Shown here piece after piece: positions 40,708 to 64,000 of a stretch of DNA of 64,000 nucleotides. The notes under the pieces were generated by a model, which saw only the letters and a list, made by a program, of their open reading frames with translations, was not told the DNA's origin and searched no databases. The stretch covers positions 1 through 64,000 of the forward strand of contig CANQJZ010000009.1 of assembly GCA_947624385.1 (NCBI GenBank), written 5' to 3'. The DNA comes from an uncultured Oscillospiraceae bacterium. GTDB lineage: Bacteria > Bacillota > Clostridia > Oscillospirales > Oscillospiraceae. The first letter of the stretch is position 1. Every line of letters starts with the position of its first letter. The translations under genes and the position numbers were made by a program.

Positions 40708-40783
40708 GGACGATTGGCGCAGCTGGTAGCGCATCCGCTTGACGTGCGGGAGGTCACAAGTTCGAGTCTTGTATCGTCCACCA
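40708..40783 (+). tRNA. tRNA-Val (anticodon GAC)
   Basis: 76 bases with a full cloverleaf: acceptor GGACGAT with ATCGTCC, D arm GCGC/GCGC around AGCTGGTA, anticodon stem TCCGC/GCGGG around TTGACGT (anticodon GAC), variable AGGTC, T arm ACAAG/CTTGT around TTCGAGT, then A and an encoded CCA. The 3' half (40738-40783) is repeated at 42145-42190. Confidence 0.97.
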
Positions 40784-56519: not shown

Positions 56520-56571
56520 ATATTTTTGTAAGTTGTTTTCAATTTGTTTCCCGGCGAAAGGAGTATGCCCC

Positions 56572-59500
56572 ATGACAAGAAAGCGCCTGAGCCTGTTTCT
56601 GGCGATCCTGATGACCTTCCTGGCCGCCGTACCCGCCCTGGCGGACGCGGCCCCTGTTGTGGACACGGCCGCCCCCACGGCGGAGCACGTACCCGTAGAC
56701 ACAGAAGTCCCCACGGAAGTACCCGTGCCCGTGGACACGGAAGTGCCCACGGAAGTACCCGTTCCCGTGGACACGGAAGTCCCCTCGGAAGAGCCCGTAC
56801 CCGTCGTCACGGAGGCCCCCACGCCGGAGCCCGTGCCTGTCGTCACGGAAGTTCCCGTCGTCACAGAGGCCCCTGAGGTCCCGGACGCGGAGCCTGCGCC
56901 CATAGCCGACGGGGACAGCGTCGCTATGTCCGGCTCCTGCGGCGCCGCTCTGACGTGGGCGCTGACCGTGAACGGCGTTGCCCCCAGTCCTGCTATCCCC
57001 AAGCTTTCGCCGATCCCCCAGGCCACGCCGGACCCCAATGCCACGCCCATACCCGACGCGACCCCGACGCCCACCCGTGCGCCCATCCCCTCTACCACCC
57101 CCAAGCCGACCTACACCCTCACCATCTCCGGCGCCGGCACGATGGCGGACTATACCTACAACAACGCCGCCCCCTGGACGGCCGGCGGGAACAGCCGGTA
57201 TGTCACCAAACTCGTCATCGGCAGCGGCGTGACCAGCATCGGCCAATACGCCTTCGCCTTTTTGACCGCGCTCACCTCCGTGGAGATCCCCGGCACCGTG
57301 ACCACCATCGGCTCCAGCGCCTTTTATGGCTGCTCCAAGCTCACTTCCATCACCATCCCCGAAGGCGTCACCACCATTAACAGCAGCGCCTTCACCGGCA
57401 GCGGCCTGACCTCCATCCGTATCCCCGCCTCCGTCGCGTCCATCTCCCTGGAGGCTTTAGGCGGCTGCGACTACCTGGCCAACATCGAGGTAGCCGAAGC
57501 CAATAAAAACTACTGCACCGAGGGCGGCGTGCTGTTCAGCAAGTTTAACGGCAGAAGGGGCTCGCACCTGTATCTTTACCCGAAGGGAAAGACAGAAACC
57601 TCCTACACCGTTCCCAACGGCGTCGTGTACATCTACAACAACGCTTTTTCCAACTGCGCCAACCTGCGCTCTGTCACCATCCCCTCTGGCGTTACCCAGA
57701 TCGCCAGAAACGCCTTCTATTACTGCACCGGGCTTACCTCCATCCAGTTGCCCGACACGCTGACAAGAATAGATCAGTCCGCCTTCCAGGGCTGCACCGG
57801 CCTCACCTCCGTGACCATCCCGGCCGGCGTTACGAAGATCGGCGAAGCCGCGTTCTGCTACTGCGCCGGCCTTACCTCCGTCACGTTTTCGGGCAATGCC
57901 CTGACCACCATCGGCGACGGCGCGTTTGCCGACTGCTACGCCCTGAGGAGCATAACCATCCCCGGCAGCGTCAAAGACGGCGTCAAAGATTCGGACGGGA
58001 ACTTCACCGGCTTTGGCGAGAGCGTCTTTCTCCGCTGCGTCAGCCTCAATAATCCGACCCTCCCCTCGGGCCTGACGACCATTCCGGAAGAGACGTTCGC
58101 CGGCTGTGAGGCCCTTTCCAGCGTGAGCATCCCCAGCGGCGTTACCACCATCGGCAACAAGGCCTTTGCCTCCTGCACGTCTCTCACGGGCATTTCCCTC
58201 AGCTCCAACATCACCACCATTGACAACGGCGCTTTCTCCGGCTCCGGTCTGCGAAGCGTCAGTATCCCCTCTGGCGTCACCGCCATCAACCACTCCGCCT
58301 TCTACAACTGCAAAAACCTCTCCAGCGTTTCCCTGCCGACCGGCCTTACCTCCATCGGCACCTGTGCCTTTGCCAACTGCGCGAGCCTGACGAGCCTGAG
58401 CCTCCCCTCGAAGCTGGCCACCGTTGGCGCTATGGCCTTCGACGGCGCCGGTCTGCAAAGCGTGACGCTGCCGTCCTCGGTGACCACGATCTGCTACGGC
58501 GCTTTCAGCAACTGCAATTCCTTGACGAGGCTCACCGTCAACAACCCGGATTGCAAGCTCTCTCTGGCCTCTCCGAGCGGTTTGACCGACGGCCAGCCCT
58601 CCGGCAGCCAAGCCGGCACGCTGGGCGTACCCGGCACGACGGTGGTCTATATCCCCACCGCCCGTGAGATCACAGCTGTCGTCTCCTTTGCCCGGGAAAA
58701 CGGCTTCCGCTGCATTACGCCCGCACCCCAGCCCACGGCCACGCCCAGTCCCTCGCCCTCACCCAGCACCTCGCCCTCGCCCAGCACCTCCCCTTCACCC
58801 AGCACCTCGCCATCGCCCAGTCCTTCACCTTCGCCCAGCCCTTCGCCTTCGCCTTCACCCTCTCCCACACCGACCCCTACGCCTACACCTACCCCCACGC
58901 CCACGCCGACTCCCACGCCTACACCCACGCCCGTGCCCACGGCCACGCCGACCCCGGCCCCCACGGTGACCATCGCCCAGACTGACGACGGCATCCAGGT
59001 CACCTGGAACGAGATACCCGGCATTCCCCGGTACATGGTCTATTACAGGGAAAACAACGGCGGCTGGCACAAGATCGGCACCACCACCGCCACCACATAC
59101 ACCCGCAAGGCGTCCGCGCTGAAAAACGGCGTGACCTATGCCTTCACGGTCCGCTGCTGCGCCGACGATAAAACTACCATGCTCAGCGACTATGTGCCCA
59201 GCAACTCCCTGGAATACGTCTCCAACGTCCCGGAGGTGACCATCTCCCTGGCGTCCAACGGCATTCAGGTCACCTGGAACGAGATACCCGGCATTCCCCG
59301 GTACATGGTCTACTACAAGGAAAACGGCGGCGGCTGGCACAAGATCGGCACCACCACCGCCACATCGTACACCCGCAAGGCGGCCAACCTGAAAAACGGC
59401 GTGACCTATGCCTTCACGGTCCGCTGCTGCGCCGACGATAAAACTACCATGCTCAGCGGCTACGAGGCCAGCAATTCCCTCCTGTACTACGCTGCGCCCA

Positions 59501-59763
59501 CCGTGACCATCAGCCGTGCGTCAAACGGCGTCAAAGTGTCCTGGAACAAGGTCTCCGGCGCGCCCCGGTACATGGTCTACTACCGGGAAAACGGCGGCAG
59601 CTGGCACAAGATCGGCACCACCACCGCCACTACCTACACCCGCAAGGCGGCCAACCTGAAAAACGGCGTGACCTACCAGTTCACGGTCCGCTGCTGCGCC
59701 AACGACAAGAAGACCATGCTGAGCCCCTACACGGCCAGCAACAGTTTGAAGTACACCAAATAA
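56572..59763 (+). CDS. Large secreted BspA-like leucine-rich repeat protein with Pro-rich linkers and three fibronectin-like modules
   Basis: A 1063-residue protein. A signal peptide ([16 protein letters not shown], cleavage near ALA-DA at 24-26) is followed by tandem 12-residue units ([12 protein letters not shown] and variants, about 40-100), a BspA-type cap split by a Pro-rich insert ([16 protein letters not shown], insert, [11 protein letters not shown]), about 18 LRR_5 repeats (about 205-690), a Ser-Pro then Thr-Pro dipeptide linker (about 722-795) and three fibronectin-like modules (796-885, 886-975, 976-1063). No wall anchor is seen. Surface adhesion is inferred from family members. 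The three C-terminal modules and the final SNSLKYTK match the protein encoded at 28.5-30.8 kb. Confidence 0.92.
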
Positions 59764-59769
59764 ATATGT

Positions 59770-59791
59770 GGCGCGGCCAACTGGCCGCGCC
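59770..59791 (+). terminator. GC-rich hairpin after the large BspA-like gene
   Basis: GGCGCGGCC (59770-59778) pairs with GGCCGCGCC (59783-59791), loop AACT, followed by CTTCCATATGG. The T run is poor. A similar hairpin with the same flank lies at 28423-28449. Confidence 0.55.
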
Positions 59792-59802
59792 CTTCCATAT
59801 GG

Positions 59803-59931
59803 TCGGCCCCCCTGTGTAAGGGGGGCTGTCAGCGCGAAGCGCTGACTGAGGGGTTGTATCGTCGGATAACAGACAACCCCTCCGAGCGCCGCGAAGCGGC
59901 GCCCACCTCCCCTTGCACAGGGGAGGCTTAC
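59803..59931. repeat. Palindromic repeat element, copy C
   Basis: About 130 bases beginning GGCCCCCCTGTGTAAGGGGG within its left arm, inner hairpin GTCAGCGCGAAGCGCTGAC, centre GTATCGTCGGATAACAGAC (the reverse complement of the centre of copy A with one change), a second hairpin GCGCCGCGAAGCGGCGC, and right arm CTTGCACAGGGGAGGCTTA. Non-coding. Confidence 0.82.
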
Positions 59932-59978
59932 CAAGCGGAAGATATTTTTTCTTCAAGCGCCTTAATTCGAGTTTTCTA

Positions 59979-60007
59979 TTGACAATACGGGCGGATATTG
60001 TTAAAAT
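59979..60007 (+). promoter_or_regulatory. Strong sigma-A promoter of the pot leader
   Basis: TTGACA (59979-59984), 17 bases, TAAAAT (60002-60007). Transcription would start around 60013-60015, within the 5' strand of the first stem of the leader. Confidence 0.8.
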
Positions 60008-60008
60008 A

Positions 60009-60359
60009 CTGTCCGTCTCAATTGGAATCGCTTAATTCCAAAGCAAGATGCGACCGCCGTTCCCTGCCGGGACGGCCAAGGCCAGACGGACAGCCGGGTC
60101 GAACGCCGAATCGCCGCGACATGCGGCTGGCAGCGAAAGCTGCCTTATTGATTGAGTTAAAAGCTCAAGTTTTATAAGTTGGTTACTTTATAACCGGTGC
60201 CGGGCGGCACACAAACTTGTAAAATGGTCAGTAAGAGTAGGGCAAGGCATCTTTGCTTTCGGAAAACTCTCAAATCCATTGGGACGGTTCCGTCTTTAAA
60301 AGACGGTTGACCGCGACAAAACGCAAGTGGAATGTGCCAACGGCATGTTCCACTTTTTT
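60009..60359 (+). ncRNA. Structured leader RNA of potABCD, class not recognised (riboswitch/attenuator candidate)
   Basis: About 350 non-coding bases. CTGTCCGTCT (60009-60018) pairs with AGACGGACAG (60084-60093), enclosing hairpins TTGGAAT/ATTCCAA (60022-60041) and GCCGT..ACGGC (about 60057-60076) to form a multi-branch domain. Further stems: GCCGC/GCGGC (60113-60127), GGCAGC-GAAA-GCTGCC (60129-60144), GGTTA/TAACC, GTGCC/GGCAC (60197-60210), CCGTCTT/AAGACGG, then the terminator. I do not see the marks of tmRNA, RNase P RNA, SRP RNA, 6S RNA, T-box or common riboswitches. Confidence 0.6.
60325..60359 (+). terminator. Intrinsic terminator between the leader and potA
   Basis: AAGTGGAATGTGCC (60325-60338) pairs with GGCATGTTCCACTT (60342-60355), 14 pairs including two G-T, then five T. 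It ends 18 bases before the potA ATG, leaving no room for another promoter. Its 5' arm can instead pair with GGCACA (60206-60211) and ACTT (60215-60218). Confidence 0.88.
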
Positions 60360-60377
60360 CATTATCCGGAGGACGCC

Positions 60378-61492
<1,115 letters not shown>

Positions 61493-61496
<4 letters not shown>

Positions 61497-62383
61497 GGGC
61501 CGACACCGCCCGCCGCCGGTCCTTCGTCACCGGCCTTGTGAGCGCGCCATACGAGCTGTGGGCCGTGCTGTTCATCCTGGTGCCCCTGGCCTTCGTGGCC
61601 TACTACGCCTTCACGGACGACGCTTTTCGCTTCACCACCGCCAACATCACCCGGTTTTTCACCGCCACCTCGCCGGTGGTGAACGCCGACGGCACCCTGG
61701 GCCAGACCCACACCTATCTGCTCATCTCCCTGCGGAGCATGAAGCTGGCGCTGATCTCCACGGTAGTTTGTCTGCTGCTGGGCTATCCGCTGGCCTACAT
61801 CATCTCCCGTGCCTCTCCCAGGGCGCAAAAGACCATGATGACCCTCATCATGATACCCATGTGGATGAACTTTCTGATCCGCACCTACGCCTGGATGACC
61901 ATACTGCAGGACAAGGGCATCCTCAACAGCCTTCTGGGGCTGCTGGGCCTTGGGCCGGTCCACATCATCGGCACGGAGACGGCCGTGGTCATCGGCATGG
62001 TGTACGATTACCTGCCCTACATGATACTTCCGCTGTACTCCGTCATGGCCAAGATGGACGTAAAGCTGCTGGAGGCGGCCCGGGACCTGGGCTGCGCGCC
62101 GGTGGGCGTACTGCGGCGGGTCATACTGCCCCTGAGCCTTCCCGGCGTGGTCAACGGCGTGACCATGGTGCTCATCCCCTCCATCAGCACATTTTATATC
62201 TCCCAAAAGCTGGGCAACGGCCTGTTCTTCCTGCTGGGCGACGCCATCGAGGGCCAGTACACCGCCAACAACCTGCACTTCGCCGCGGCCATCGCCTTCA
62301 TCCTCATGGTGGTCCTGCTGGCCGCTATGGCGGTCATGCGCCGTCTCACCGACAAATACACATATGGGGAGAATGCGGTATGA
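61493..62383 (+). CDS. potB: Spermidine/putrescine ABC transporter permease PotB
   Basis: A 296-residue permease with six transmembrane helices and the cytoplasmic EAA loop [19 protein letters not shown] that docks on PotA. ATGA overlaps at both ends (with potA and potC) show tight coupling. The order A-B-C-D is that of the standard pot operon. Confidence 0.95.
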
Positions 62384-63207
62384 AAAATGCGTCAAAGATC
62401 TTCACAGGCCTGATGTTCCTGTTTCTGTTCGCCCCCATCGCCATCCTGCTGGTGTTCTCCTTCAACGGCGCCAAGAGCACGTCCGTGTTTTCCGGCTTCT
62501 CCCTGAAATGGTACGTGGAGCTGTTTCATGACACGGACACCCTCAAGACCGTGCGCAACACCCTTGTGCTTGCCGTATGCGCCGCCGGCGTTTCCACCGT
62601 CATGGGCACCGCGGCCGCCGTGGGCATCCACCGCATGCGGGGAAAATATCTGCGCTCGGCCATGGACATGGTGACCAACATCCCCATGATAAACCCGGAC
62701 ATCATCACCGGCATCTCCATGATGCTCATGTTCGTCTTTGCGGGCCGTTTATTTGGCCGGGCCAACAGCCTCAGCTACGCCACCCTTCTCATCGCCCACA
62801 TCACCTTCTGCCTGCCCTACGTGATCTTACAGGTGCTTCCCAAGCTGCGCCAGATGGACACGGCCCTGCCGGAGGCGGCCATGGACCTGGGCTGCACCCC
62901 CTGGCGGGCCTTCTGGAAGGTGGAGCTTCCGGAGCTGCTTCCCGGCGTGGTCACCGGCATGATCATGGCCTTCACCCTGAGTCTGGACGACTTTGTGATA
63001 AGCTACTTCACCACCGGCACGGGCTTTCAGACCCTCCCCATCCGCATTTACAACATGACGAAAAAGACCGTCACGCCCAAGATGTACGCCCTGGCGACCA
63101 TCATCTTCTTCGTCATTCTGGCGCTGCTGCTCATCTCCAACCTGACCGGCCGCAGCGACACCCAGGCGCTTCACAGCGCCAAACAGGAAAAGAAAGCGAA
63201 AAACTGA
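62380..63207 (+). CDS. potC: Spermidine/putrescine ABC transporter permease PotC
   Basis: A 275-residue permease with six helices; EAA loop LPEAAMDLGCTPWRAFWKV and the conserved TLSLDDFVISYF near the end are typical of PotC. ATG at 62380 overlaps the potB stop (ATGA). The basic tail ends KQEKKAKN. Confidence 0.95.
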   Translation: MKNASKIFTGLMFLFLFAPIAILLVFSFNGAKSTSVFSGFSLKWYVELFHDTDTLKTVRNTLVLAVCAAGVSTVMGTAAAVGIHRMRGKYLRSAMDMVTNIPMINPDIITGISMMLMFVFAGRLFGRANSLSYATLLIAHITFCLPYVILQVLPKLRQMDTALPEAAMDLGCTPWRAFWKVELPELLPGVVTGMIMAFTLSLDDFVISYFTTGTGFQTLPIRIYNMTKKTVTPKMYALATIIFFVILALLLISNLTGRSDTQALHSAKQEKKAKN

Positions 63208-63229: not shown

Positions 63230-64000
63230 ATGAAAAAAACCGTGTTCATTCTTCTCGCGGCCATTCTGACCCTGGCGCTGCTGGCCGGCTGCGGCTCGTC
63301 CGACGCCGACAGCAAACCCGCCGAGGACGCCGACGACAGCGGCTCCGCCGGCACGCTGACGCTGAACGTCTACAACTGGGGCGAGTACATCTCCGACGGC
63401 TCCGAGGGCAGCTTCGACACCATCCGGGAGTTTGAGGCCTGGTACGAGGAAAACTACGGCCAGCCCATCCACGTCAACTATGACACCTATGCCAGCAACG
63501 AGGACATGTACAACAAGCTGTCCATCGGCGCGGTGAGCTACGATGTGGTCATCCCCTCCGACTATATGATCGAGCGCATGATCAGCGAGGACATGCTCCT
63601 TCCCCTGGACTTTGACAACATCCCCAACTACGCCAACATCGACGACAGCTTCCACGGCCTGTACTACGACCCGGACGACGTATACTCCGTGCCCTACACC
63701 TACGGCGTGGTGGGCGTGATCTACGACGCCAACGTTGTGGACGAGGCGGACGCCGGCTCCTGGGACCTGCTGTGGAACGAGAAATACGCCGGCCAGATGC
63801 TCCAGTTCAACAACCCCCGGGACGCCTTCGGCACCGCCATGTACCGGGCGGATATCGACGTGAACACCACCGACCGCTCCCAGTGGGACGCGGCCCTCGC
63901 CGACCTGCTGGTCCAGCGTCCGCTGGTCAAGAGCTATGTCATGGACGAGATCTATAACATGATGGAGTCCGGCGAGGCCGCCATCGGCACCTATTACGCC
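63230..64000 (+). CDS. potD: Spermidine/putrescine-binding lipoprotein PotD (partial)
   Basis: The first 257 codons of an extracellular solute-binding protein; the gene continues beyond the window. A lipoprotein signal (MKKTVFILLAAILTLALLAG, Cys21) and an acidic spacer are followed by LNVYNWGEYIS, a hallmark of the PotD/PotF group, and YDVVIPSDYMIERM. It delivers polyamine to PotBC. CGGAGGT precedes ATG. Exact ligand (putrescine, spermidine or related) is not decided. Confidence 0.94.
   Translation, partial: MKKTVFILLAAILTLALLAGCGSSDADSKPAEDADDSGSAGTLTLNVYNWGEYISDGSEGSFDTIREFEAWYEENYGQPIHVNYDTYASNEDMYNKLSIGAVSYDVVIPSDYMIERMISEDMLLPLDFDNIPNYANIDDSFHGLYYDPDDVYSVPYTYGVVGVIYDANVVDEADAGSWDLLWNEKYAGQMLQFNNPRDAFGTAMYRADIDVNTTDRSQWDAALADLLVQRPLVKSYVMDEIYNMMESGEAAIGTYYA

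Follow-up and report, generated by a model that had tools for sequence, protein, structure and literature searches.

The window analysed here, 64,000 nucleotides of DNA from an uncultured Oscillospiraceae bacterium (assembly GCA_947624385.1, contig CANQJZ010000009.1, positions 1 to 64,000 of the forward strand), ends in potABCD, the genes of a polyamine importer, and raises the question of what the long non-coding leader in front of potA does. An earlier note, made from the letters alone, had proposed that this leader is an unrecognised riboswitch or attenuator controlling the pot genes. The reading we favour, at a probability of roughly 0.7, is that of a riboswitch acting in cis by transcription attenuation, from a class unrecognised so far, that most likely responds to spermidine or a close polyamine as an OFF switch. 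Three computational observations carry this reading and back the earlier proposal: a conserved fold whose stems co-vary, a recurrent and mutually exclusive terminator/antiterminator pairing that co-varies as well, and a conserved place before polyamine genes, seen in 85 of 85 genomes with a match in three genome draws. On these comparisons the role of a cis-acting attenuator of polyamine genes is strongly supported and that of a polyamine sensor moderately supported, and the RNA is a candidate new polyamine riboswitch class, predicted from sequence.

The leader is bounded in the window by two elements, both of which the earlier note had placed at the same positions.

59979 to 60007, forward strand: promoter, with -35 box TTGACA (59979-59984), -10 box TAAAAT (60002-60007), a spacer of 17 and an extended TG; 11 of 12 in a consensus scan.
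60323 to 60359, forward strand: intrinsic terminator, a 14-pair stem (60325-60355) followed by a U-run (TTTT); its 5' arm (60323-60338) is the predicted switching strand.

The transcript is expected to start near 60014, giving a leader of about 60014-60359. A scan of 59400-60700 found two promoter-like sites against 0.8 expected from shuffled sequence, the second lying at 60535, within potA; between the terminator and potA no promoter-like site appeared at the scan threshold, in agreement with what the earlier note had claimed. The stretch 60014-60365 folds at -140.9 kcal/mol, as compared with -104.2 +/- 5.4 for 100 shuffled sequences (z -6.8, 0 of 100 as stable). The lowest-energy fold of the window sequence alone contains the 3' domain of the consensus described below, while its 5' domain departs from the P1/P2 consensus derived from homologues. 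Terminator-like sites in the scan numbered three, against 2.0 +/- 1.5 in shuffles, so that the presence of the window terminator is by itself within chance; the evidence for this predicted element is its recurrence in homologues rather than the scan.

Rfam 15 returns a single leader match over its cut-off, RF02440 (SpF59_sRNA, ldcC RNA) at 60051-60109, with 60.1 bits against a gathering score of 37.2. The RF02440 model has 54 positions and carries the type 'Gene; sRNA' (small RNA). It describes the same RNA as the leader, and it covers just the 5' domain of a far larger conserved RNA of about 220 nt. An Rfam scan of six homologous loci found no family besides RF02440 down to an expect value (E) of 0.01, and the 3' part of the RNA is therefore uncovered by a family there. 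The word 'unrecognised' in the earlier note thus holds for the function and the extent of the RNA, and fails for its existence, part of which RF02440 already records. No housekeeping family matched the leader; RF02440 does not count as one because no assigned function for SpF59 was found in the available parts of the open papers.

In Streptococcus pneumoniae the RNA is catalogued as F59, SN20 and srn235 (PMC2887815, PMC3395615, PMC4387999). Two of these papers describe SN20 as 318 nt long, with its own promoter and terminator and flanked by SP0915, on the opposite strand, and by SP0916 (PMC2887815, PMC3395615). Kumar et al. 2010 suggested from a shared motif that SN20 is perhaps a flavin mononucleotide (FMN) switch (PMC2887815). 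A search of the open PubMed Central (PMC) literature, with preprints and most subscription papers outside it, found no description of an RF02440-type RNA as a polyamine riboswitch; two papers, in the parts available, cite only the spermidine riboswitch class of 2023 (PMC12335538, PMC12186494). Term searches within PMC11109978, PMC6429828 and PMC7266159 gave no hits, and the single hit within PMC2864571 was unrelated.

RF02440 has a single match in each of 49 genomes, the window's own among them, out of 99 from its kin. Scanning genome contigs for the 23-base core of the RNA gave at least 118 loci; the matches listed include Oscillospiraceae, Lachnospiraceae, Paenibacillus, Bacillus, Lactococcus, Acidaminococcus, Phascolarctobacterium and one Synergistaceae record. 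R1, a covariance model with 167 positions, was trained on 35 diverse sequences, the window among them, and gives on this training sequence one match of 160.2 bits at 60051-60239. Genome searches with R1, run with stricter filters that lose some weak matches, covered three partly overlapping draws. Matches occurred in 46 of 391 genomes drawn from the class, in 19 of 398 drawn from the phylum (4 in common with the class draw) and in 27 of 299 drawn from a second class of the phylum (3 in common with the phylum draw), always in single copy, for a total of 85 distinct genomes including the window's. Two copies per genome were seen in Lactococcus genome G870 and in a Lactococcus-like bin, G872, both reached through loci. 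A phage collection gave no match to the RNA, and a plasmid collection gave one, a Paenibacillus record.

The genes that follow the RNA belong to four families. Each locus was labelled by the nearest tblastn match, with representative proteins, of the four families within 1.2-1.4 kb, intervening open reading frames not being excluded singly; the nearest family was used since choosing by best E-value lets the following gene give many SpeD loci a decarboxylase label. Among 148 parsed loci, which come from the RF02440 kin search and the core-scan matches listed and include some genomes in duplicate, the nearest same-direction downstream family is PotA in 56, SpeD in 32, Orn/Lys/Arg decarboxylase in 32 and carboxynorspermidine synthase in 21 (141 in all); at the other 7 the sequence ends less than 460 nt after the RNA. 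The draws give the same four families at all 84 distinct loci outside the window, and with the window the count is 85 of 85 genomes. The class draw (45 of 45) has decarboxylase 17, SpeD 14, PotA 12 and carboxynorspermidine synthase 2; the phylum draw (15 of 15) has carboxynorspermidine synthase 7, decarboxylase 4 and SpeD 4; and the second-class draw (24 of 24) has carboxynorspermidine synthase 19 and decarboxylase 5. In the class draw the downstream gene lies -11 to 437 nt from the end of the R1 match. SP0916, downstream of the pneumococcal RNA, is presumably a lysine/arginine decarboxylase gene, and the Rfam alias 'ldcC' agrees.

Pfam searches on representatives confirm the downstream families. 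The 'PotA' labels rest on tblastn, for which other ATP-binding cassette (ABC) ATPases could also qualify; where more than 4.2 kb follows, PotB, PotC and PotD are all present (16 of 16 PotA loci), and 13 of 40 shorter loci reach PotB. By NCBIfam models, one operon (L055) encodes SpeD, a decarboxylase, SpeE and agmatinase; another (L066) a decarboxylase, SpeE, agmatinase and a carboxynorspermidine synthase, the synthase below its model's cut-off; and a third (L057) a carboxynorspermidine synthase, likewise below cut-off, together with NspC, carboxynorspermidine decarboxylase. In both two-copy genomes, G870 and G872, one copy precedes PotA and the other a decarboxylase, and therefore one RNA type covers import and synthesis within one cell. 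The control of pot genes proposed earlier is supported, but the RNA does not belong to pot genes alone: it also precedes speD, decarboxylase and carboxynorspermidine synthase genes.

The type that Rfam assigns implies a stand-alone, trans-acting sRNA, and the listing of the RNA among the sRNAs of S. pneumoniae, together with a lung phenotype given for F59 in the available part of a review table, points the same way. We consider this most improbable, since orientation and position before polyamine genes are fixed in 85 of 85 genomes with a match in the draws and the terminated leaders of attenuators show up as short RNAs too.

The fold of the RNA was examined in two alignments. For A1, 140 of the 148 loci were kept (8 had short flanks), and 19 of 66 dereplicated loci were dropped, their 3' end motif not being at the expected length, which left 47 sequences; dropping 12 of these as divergent or badly aligned left the 35 used to train R1. 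A3 consists of the window and 60 other loci from the class and phylum draws (61 sequences); it is fitted to R1 and overlaps the training set in part, the window being in both and some drawn genomes appearing identical to training loci (e.g. L177, L038). The default RNAalifold consensus on A1 has just 20 pairs, all of them up to P5; because it is so sparse, the structure that was counted was written from the window fold and the homologues. Its elements in the window are as follows.

60022 to 60041, forward strand: putative P0 hairpin, TTGGAAT (60022-60028) with ATTCCAA (60035-60041), read from the sequence and seen by eye in some homologues.
60051-60055 with 60097-60101, forward strand: P1, closing the 5' domain, as placed by R1; two-sided changes at 5 of 5 pairs in A3.
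60056-60060 with 60072-60076, forward strand: P2, a hairpin inside P1, as placed by R1; two-sided changes at 5 of 5 pairs in A3.
60078 to 60100, forward strand: the most conserved core, AAGGCCAGACGGACAGCCGGGTC, within the RF02440 match at 60051-60109.
60080-60082 (GGC) with 60093-60095 (GCC), forward strand: P3, a small helix in the core, or CGG/CCG as modelled.
60129-60134 with 60139-60144, forward strand: P4 hairpin; two-sided changes at 6 of 6 pairs in A3.
60145-60152 with 60227-60234, forward strand: P6, closing the 3' domain; 98.2% of cells paired and zero two-sided changes in A3, hence little covariation information.
60153-60157 with 60163-60167, forward strand: P5 hairpin; two-sided changes at 2 of 5 pairs in A3 and 5 of 5 in A1.
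60170-60180 with 60214-60224, forward strand: P7; 95% of cells paired, two-sided changes at 1 of 11 pairs in A3 and 4 of 11 in A1.
60181-60185 with 60191-60195, forward strand: P8 hairpin; two-sided changes at 4 of 5 pairs in A3 and 3 of 5 in A1.
60197 to 60210, forward strand: P9 hairpin, GTGCC/GGCAC, which folds in the window; its 3' arm is one half of the predicted antiterminator.
60235-60238 (GAGT) with 60266-60269 (ACTC), forward strand: P10, a stem-loop after both domains, with inner GCAA/TTGC; outer stem 97.9% of cells paired in A1, one-sided changes only.

Of the cells of A1, 92.6% are paired over 58 pairs, 23 of which show two-sided changes; none of 500 shuffles reaches any of five measures, and slid structures pair 35-47%. 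The corresponding figures for A3 are 96.1% of cells paired and two-sided changes at 24 of 48 pairs, again with 0 of 500 shuffles reaching any measure. P9 was kept out of these counts for its variable sequence and poor alignment. Covariation among homologous leaders thus supports the fold in both alignments: P1, P2, P4 and P8 have good support, P5 partial and P7 weak, and P3, P6 and P10 are too conserved to tell. P3 drawn as CGG/CCG is invariant in A1 and uninformative; variant members (L211, L238-L241) keep, by eye, a GGC/GCC-type pairing around an ACGGACA loop and break CGG/CCG, which suggests that P3 is better drawn as GGC/GCC. In two members (L209, 1501-1702, before a decarboxylase, and L211, 1500-1706, before speD) the 3' domain is intact and the 5' core strongly altered; members of this type may possibly be variants of ligand specificity. 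The window carries an additional GC-rich hairpin at 60113-60127, between the core and P4, which is shared with some PotA-type relatives in A1 and missing from most other members.

Attenuation by way of a ribosome translating a short leader peptide is known from other bacterial leaders. Here it is scarcely credible. Length differences that are not multiples of three occur freely inside the conserved region, and open reading frames of at least 8 codons preceded by a Shine-Dalgarno sequence occur in 10 of 71 dereplicated leaders, as against 27.7 in base-shuffled ones, at no shared position. A peptide leader was rejected, no conserved short open reading frame being found in the 71 dereplicated loci.

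A riboswitch of the kind we favour calls for a second pairing that excludes the terminator. The earlier note had described one in the window, and it proves exact and slightly longer than stated: GGCACA (60206-60211) pairs with TGTGCC (60333-60338) and ACTTGT (60215-60220) with GCAAGT (60323-60328), for 12 pairs with one G-U. ACTTGT is the 3' strand of P7, which thus doubles as an antiterminator half. With a simple finder, 144 of 193 homologous loci show a terminator following the RNA, and across homologues its 5' arm shows complementarity to both P9 and P7, on their 3' strands. In 71 dereplicated loci, duplexes between strands of one and the same locus average -13.3 kcal/mol, against -10.4 +/- 0.27 with permuted partners (0 of 10,000 as good); the corresponding values are -7.3 for shuffled arms and -9.0 kcal/mol for the terminator loop with the 3' arm. 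Restricted to the variable P9 part, 67 loci give -6.9 against -5.7 +/- 0.23 for permuted partners, again with 0 of 10,000 as good. These tests drop the 49 loci without a found terminator and two with a failed anchor (L044, L088), and the variable-part test drops 4 more of the 71.

Several results weigh against the switch as drawn. The terminator finder missed 49 of 193 loci; 6 of these are cut short, and seven misses inspected by eye all show a hairpin and U-run. The antiterminator signal is an average: in 30 of 71 loci the locus's own arm falls within the top tenth, and in 16 of 67 when the variable part is used. It is weaker in 18 strictly dereplicated loci, where 27 of 10,000 permutations of the variable part are as good, and the control made of the terminator loop and 3' arm is also low (24 of 5,000), with the P4-region control at 577 of 5,000. 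Kinship thus contributes to the signal, yet the pairing recurs with changing letters (e.g. L040, L059, L184, L194). Three Lactococcus-like loci (L092, L102, L114) misfit the P7/P9 antiterminator. At equilibrium the forced antiterminator is less stable than the aptamer with the terminator, by 8.5-9 kcal/mol once the 5' arm is complete and by 20 at full length; read-through would therefore need kinetic control, a factor, or interactions outside the model. One context departs from polyamine genes, the sole such case: at L026/L216, outside the draws, an intact RNA with a terminator (by eye) stands ahead of a non-polyamine gene, which we take to encode an M28-type peptidase. L026, a core variant, was left out of the pattern-based set and is counted as an exception.

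The usual P7 ACTTGT module is missing from Lactococcus-like L102, L114 and L212-L215, which have a different stretch (CCCAAGAAA...CGCTT) instead. Such members therefore need another expression platform.

Since equilibrium does not favour the antiterminator, switching might require a trans-acting factor, and the conserved leader could be an attenuator to which a protein or other macromolecule binds instead of a small molecule. Much of the core shows no variation in A1, and invariant stretches also occur in protein-binding RNAs. Against this, the RNA resembles an aptamer in its two closed domains and in unpaired letters that are strictly conserved, and the downstream genes encode enzymes and transporters, not regulators (this concerns the downstream side only, without a search for a partner protein). 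We regard such an attenuator as quite unlikely.

For the riboswitch reading we propose the following mechanism. The sensing fold would consist of two closed domains, P1-P3 and P6-P9. A bound ligand would stabilise the P7/P9 module, so that the hairpin 60325-60355 forms and transcription halts before potA; with P7/P9 open, GGCACA (60206-60211) and ACTTGT (60215-60220) would pair with the terminator 5' arm (60323-60338) and the pot operon would be transcribed. As the antiterminator is built from strands that the sensing fold needs, a stabilised fold would favour termination, and an OFF switch would then be natural for genes of polyamine synthesis and import. We infer the binding of a small molecule, its identity as spermidine or a close polyamine, and its effect in favour of termination. 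The regulated genes cover the importer, two routes (aminopropyl and carboxynorspermidine-type) and the decarboxylase supplying both. What they share is the final polyamine; spermidine is the first candidate ligand.

A riboswitch of the same mechanism might instead answer to putrescine, agmatine, S-adenosylmethionine, its decarboxylated form, or an ion or charge signal, given that the regulated S-adenosylmethionine decarboxylase and Orn/Lys/Arg decarboxylase make substrates and intermediates possible signals. Another ligand is unlikely in our view, the final polyamine being the common denominator of the four gene sets (two spermidine routes plus the importer). The window's own genome, 93.4% complete, bears on this choice. 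It contains no match to SpeD, SpeE or NspC, and for Orn/Lys/Arg decarboxylase only a weak fragment below cut-off, decarboxylases of the other fold and carboxynorspermidine synthase not having been searched. These absences speak against decarboxylated S-adenosylmethionine as the signal there, while S-adenosylmethionine itself, or agmatine or putrescine made by other-fold decarboxylases, stays compatible with the genome. The bacterium probably imports its polyamines, and with no match to SpeD, SpeE or NspC an imported polyamine is the simplest signal there.

A spermidine riboswitch is already described. According to the available parts of the paper, the riboswitch of Salvail et al. 2023 is a SAM-I variant of narrow distribution that precedes speE, speB, speD and ldcC, keeps the four-stem SAM-I architecture and turns expression OFF by premature termination (PMC10853860). 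The leader resembles it in having polyamine genes downstream and a terminator, with OFF in our case a prediction (PMC10853860). Unlike it, the window RNA has a different helix order and was found in 46 of 391, 19 of 398 and 27 of 299 genomes of the three draws. Identity with the SAM-I-type class was rejected, as no SAM-family model matched 59700-60700 (to E 10) or the six homologous loci (to E 0.01).

The odc1 motif of Brewer et al. 2021 is similar in being a candidate regulatory RNA before an ornithine decarboxylase gene, but the available text describes it as a hairpin with a pseudoknot and an upstream open reading frame, known from 272 alpha-proteobacterial examples and thought to steer the choice of translation start (PMC8632094). 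The raiA motif, or ModT RNA (RF03072), is like the leader a conserved structured RNA of Bacillota, as far as the accessible part of the source goes (PMC11706538). Identity with raiA had been suggested by the conserved core of the leader and was rejected, there being no match in the window or in its own genome; in the own-genome search no control genome matched either.

We lean towards viewing the leader RNA as a second, structurally independent and far more widespread polyamine riboswitch class, concealed in Rfam as a 54-nt sRNA fragment, which would co-ordinate import and two spermidine routes across Bacillota and would serve as a gauge of uptake alone in gut bacteria that import their polyamines. 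Polyamines are abundant and bind all RNA, and a natural, selective RNA sensor for them is for that reason hard to prove. A large, mostly single-copy RNA, linked to polyamine genes wherever it occurs in the draws, makes the question of a selective sensor directly testable. If the proposal is true, it would explain the control of uptake in gut bacteria seemingly unable to make spermidine, and the Rfam sRNA entry RF02440 would become a regulatory class.

The genes downstream of the leader in the window are listed here.

60378 to 61496, forward strand: potA, ATPase of the spermidine/putrescine importer; NCBIfam NF043075 at 563.1 bits (cut-off 550) and TIGR01187 at 359.8 (cut-off 355.6).
61493 to 62383, forward strand: potB, permease; the NCBIfam PotB model is the best, below its cut-off, with Pfam BPD_transp_1.
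62380 to 63207, forward strand: potC, permease; the best NCBIfam models are polyamine permease/substrate-binding and PotC, both below cut-off.
63230 to 64000, forward strand: potD, substrate-binding protein; the NCBIfam PotD model is the best, below its cut-off, and the gene extends beyond the window.

Just upstream of the promoter, at 59800-59932, lies a palindromic element of about 125 bases that belongs to a dispersed repeat family, with 50 matches listed in its own genome (self, part-length and opposite-strand matches included), many at 80-90% identity. Before it, 56533-59763 encodes what is probably a surface protein: a large leucine-rich-repeat protein of the BspA type (Pfam LRR_5) that also has fibronectin-like repeats and a long stretch of proline-rich repeats. 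A transfer RNA gene at 40708-40780 is the sole further Rfam match over the cut-off within the window.
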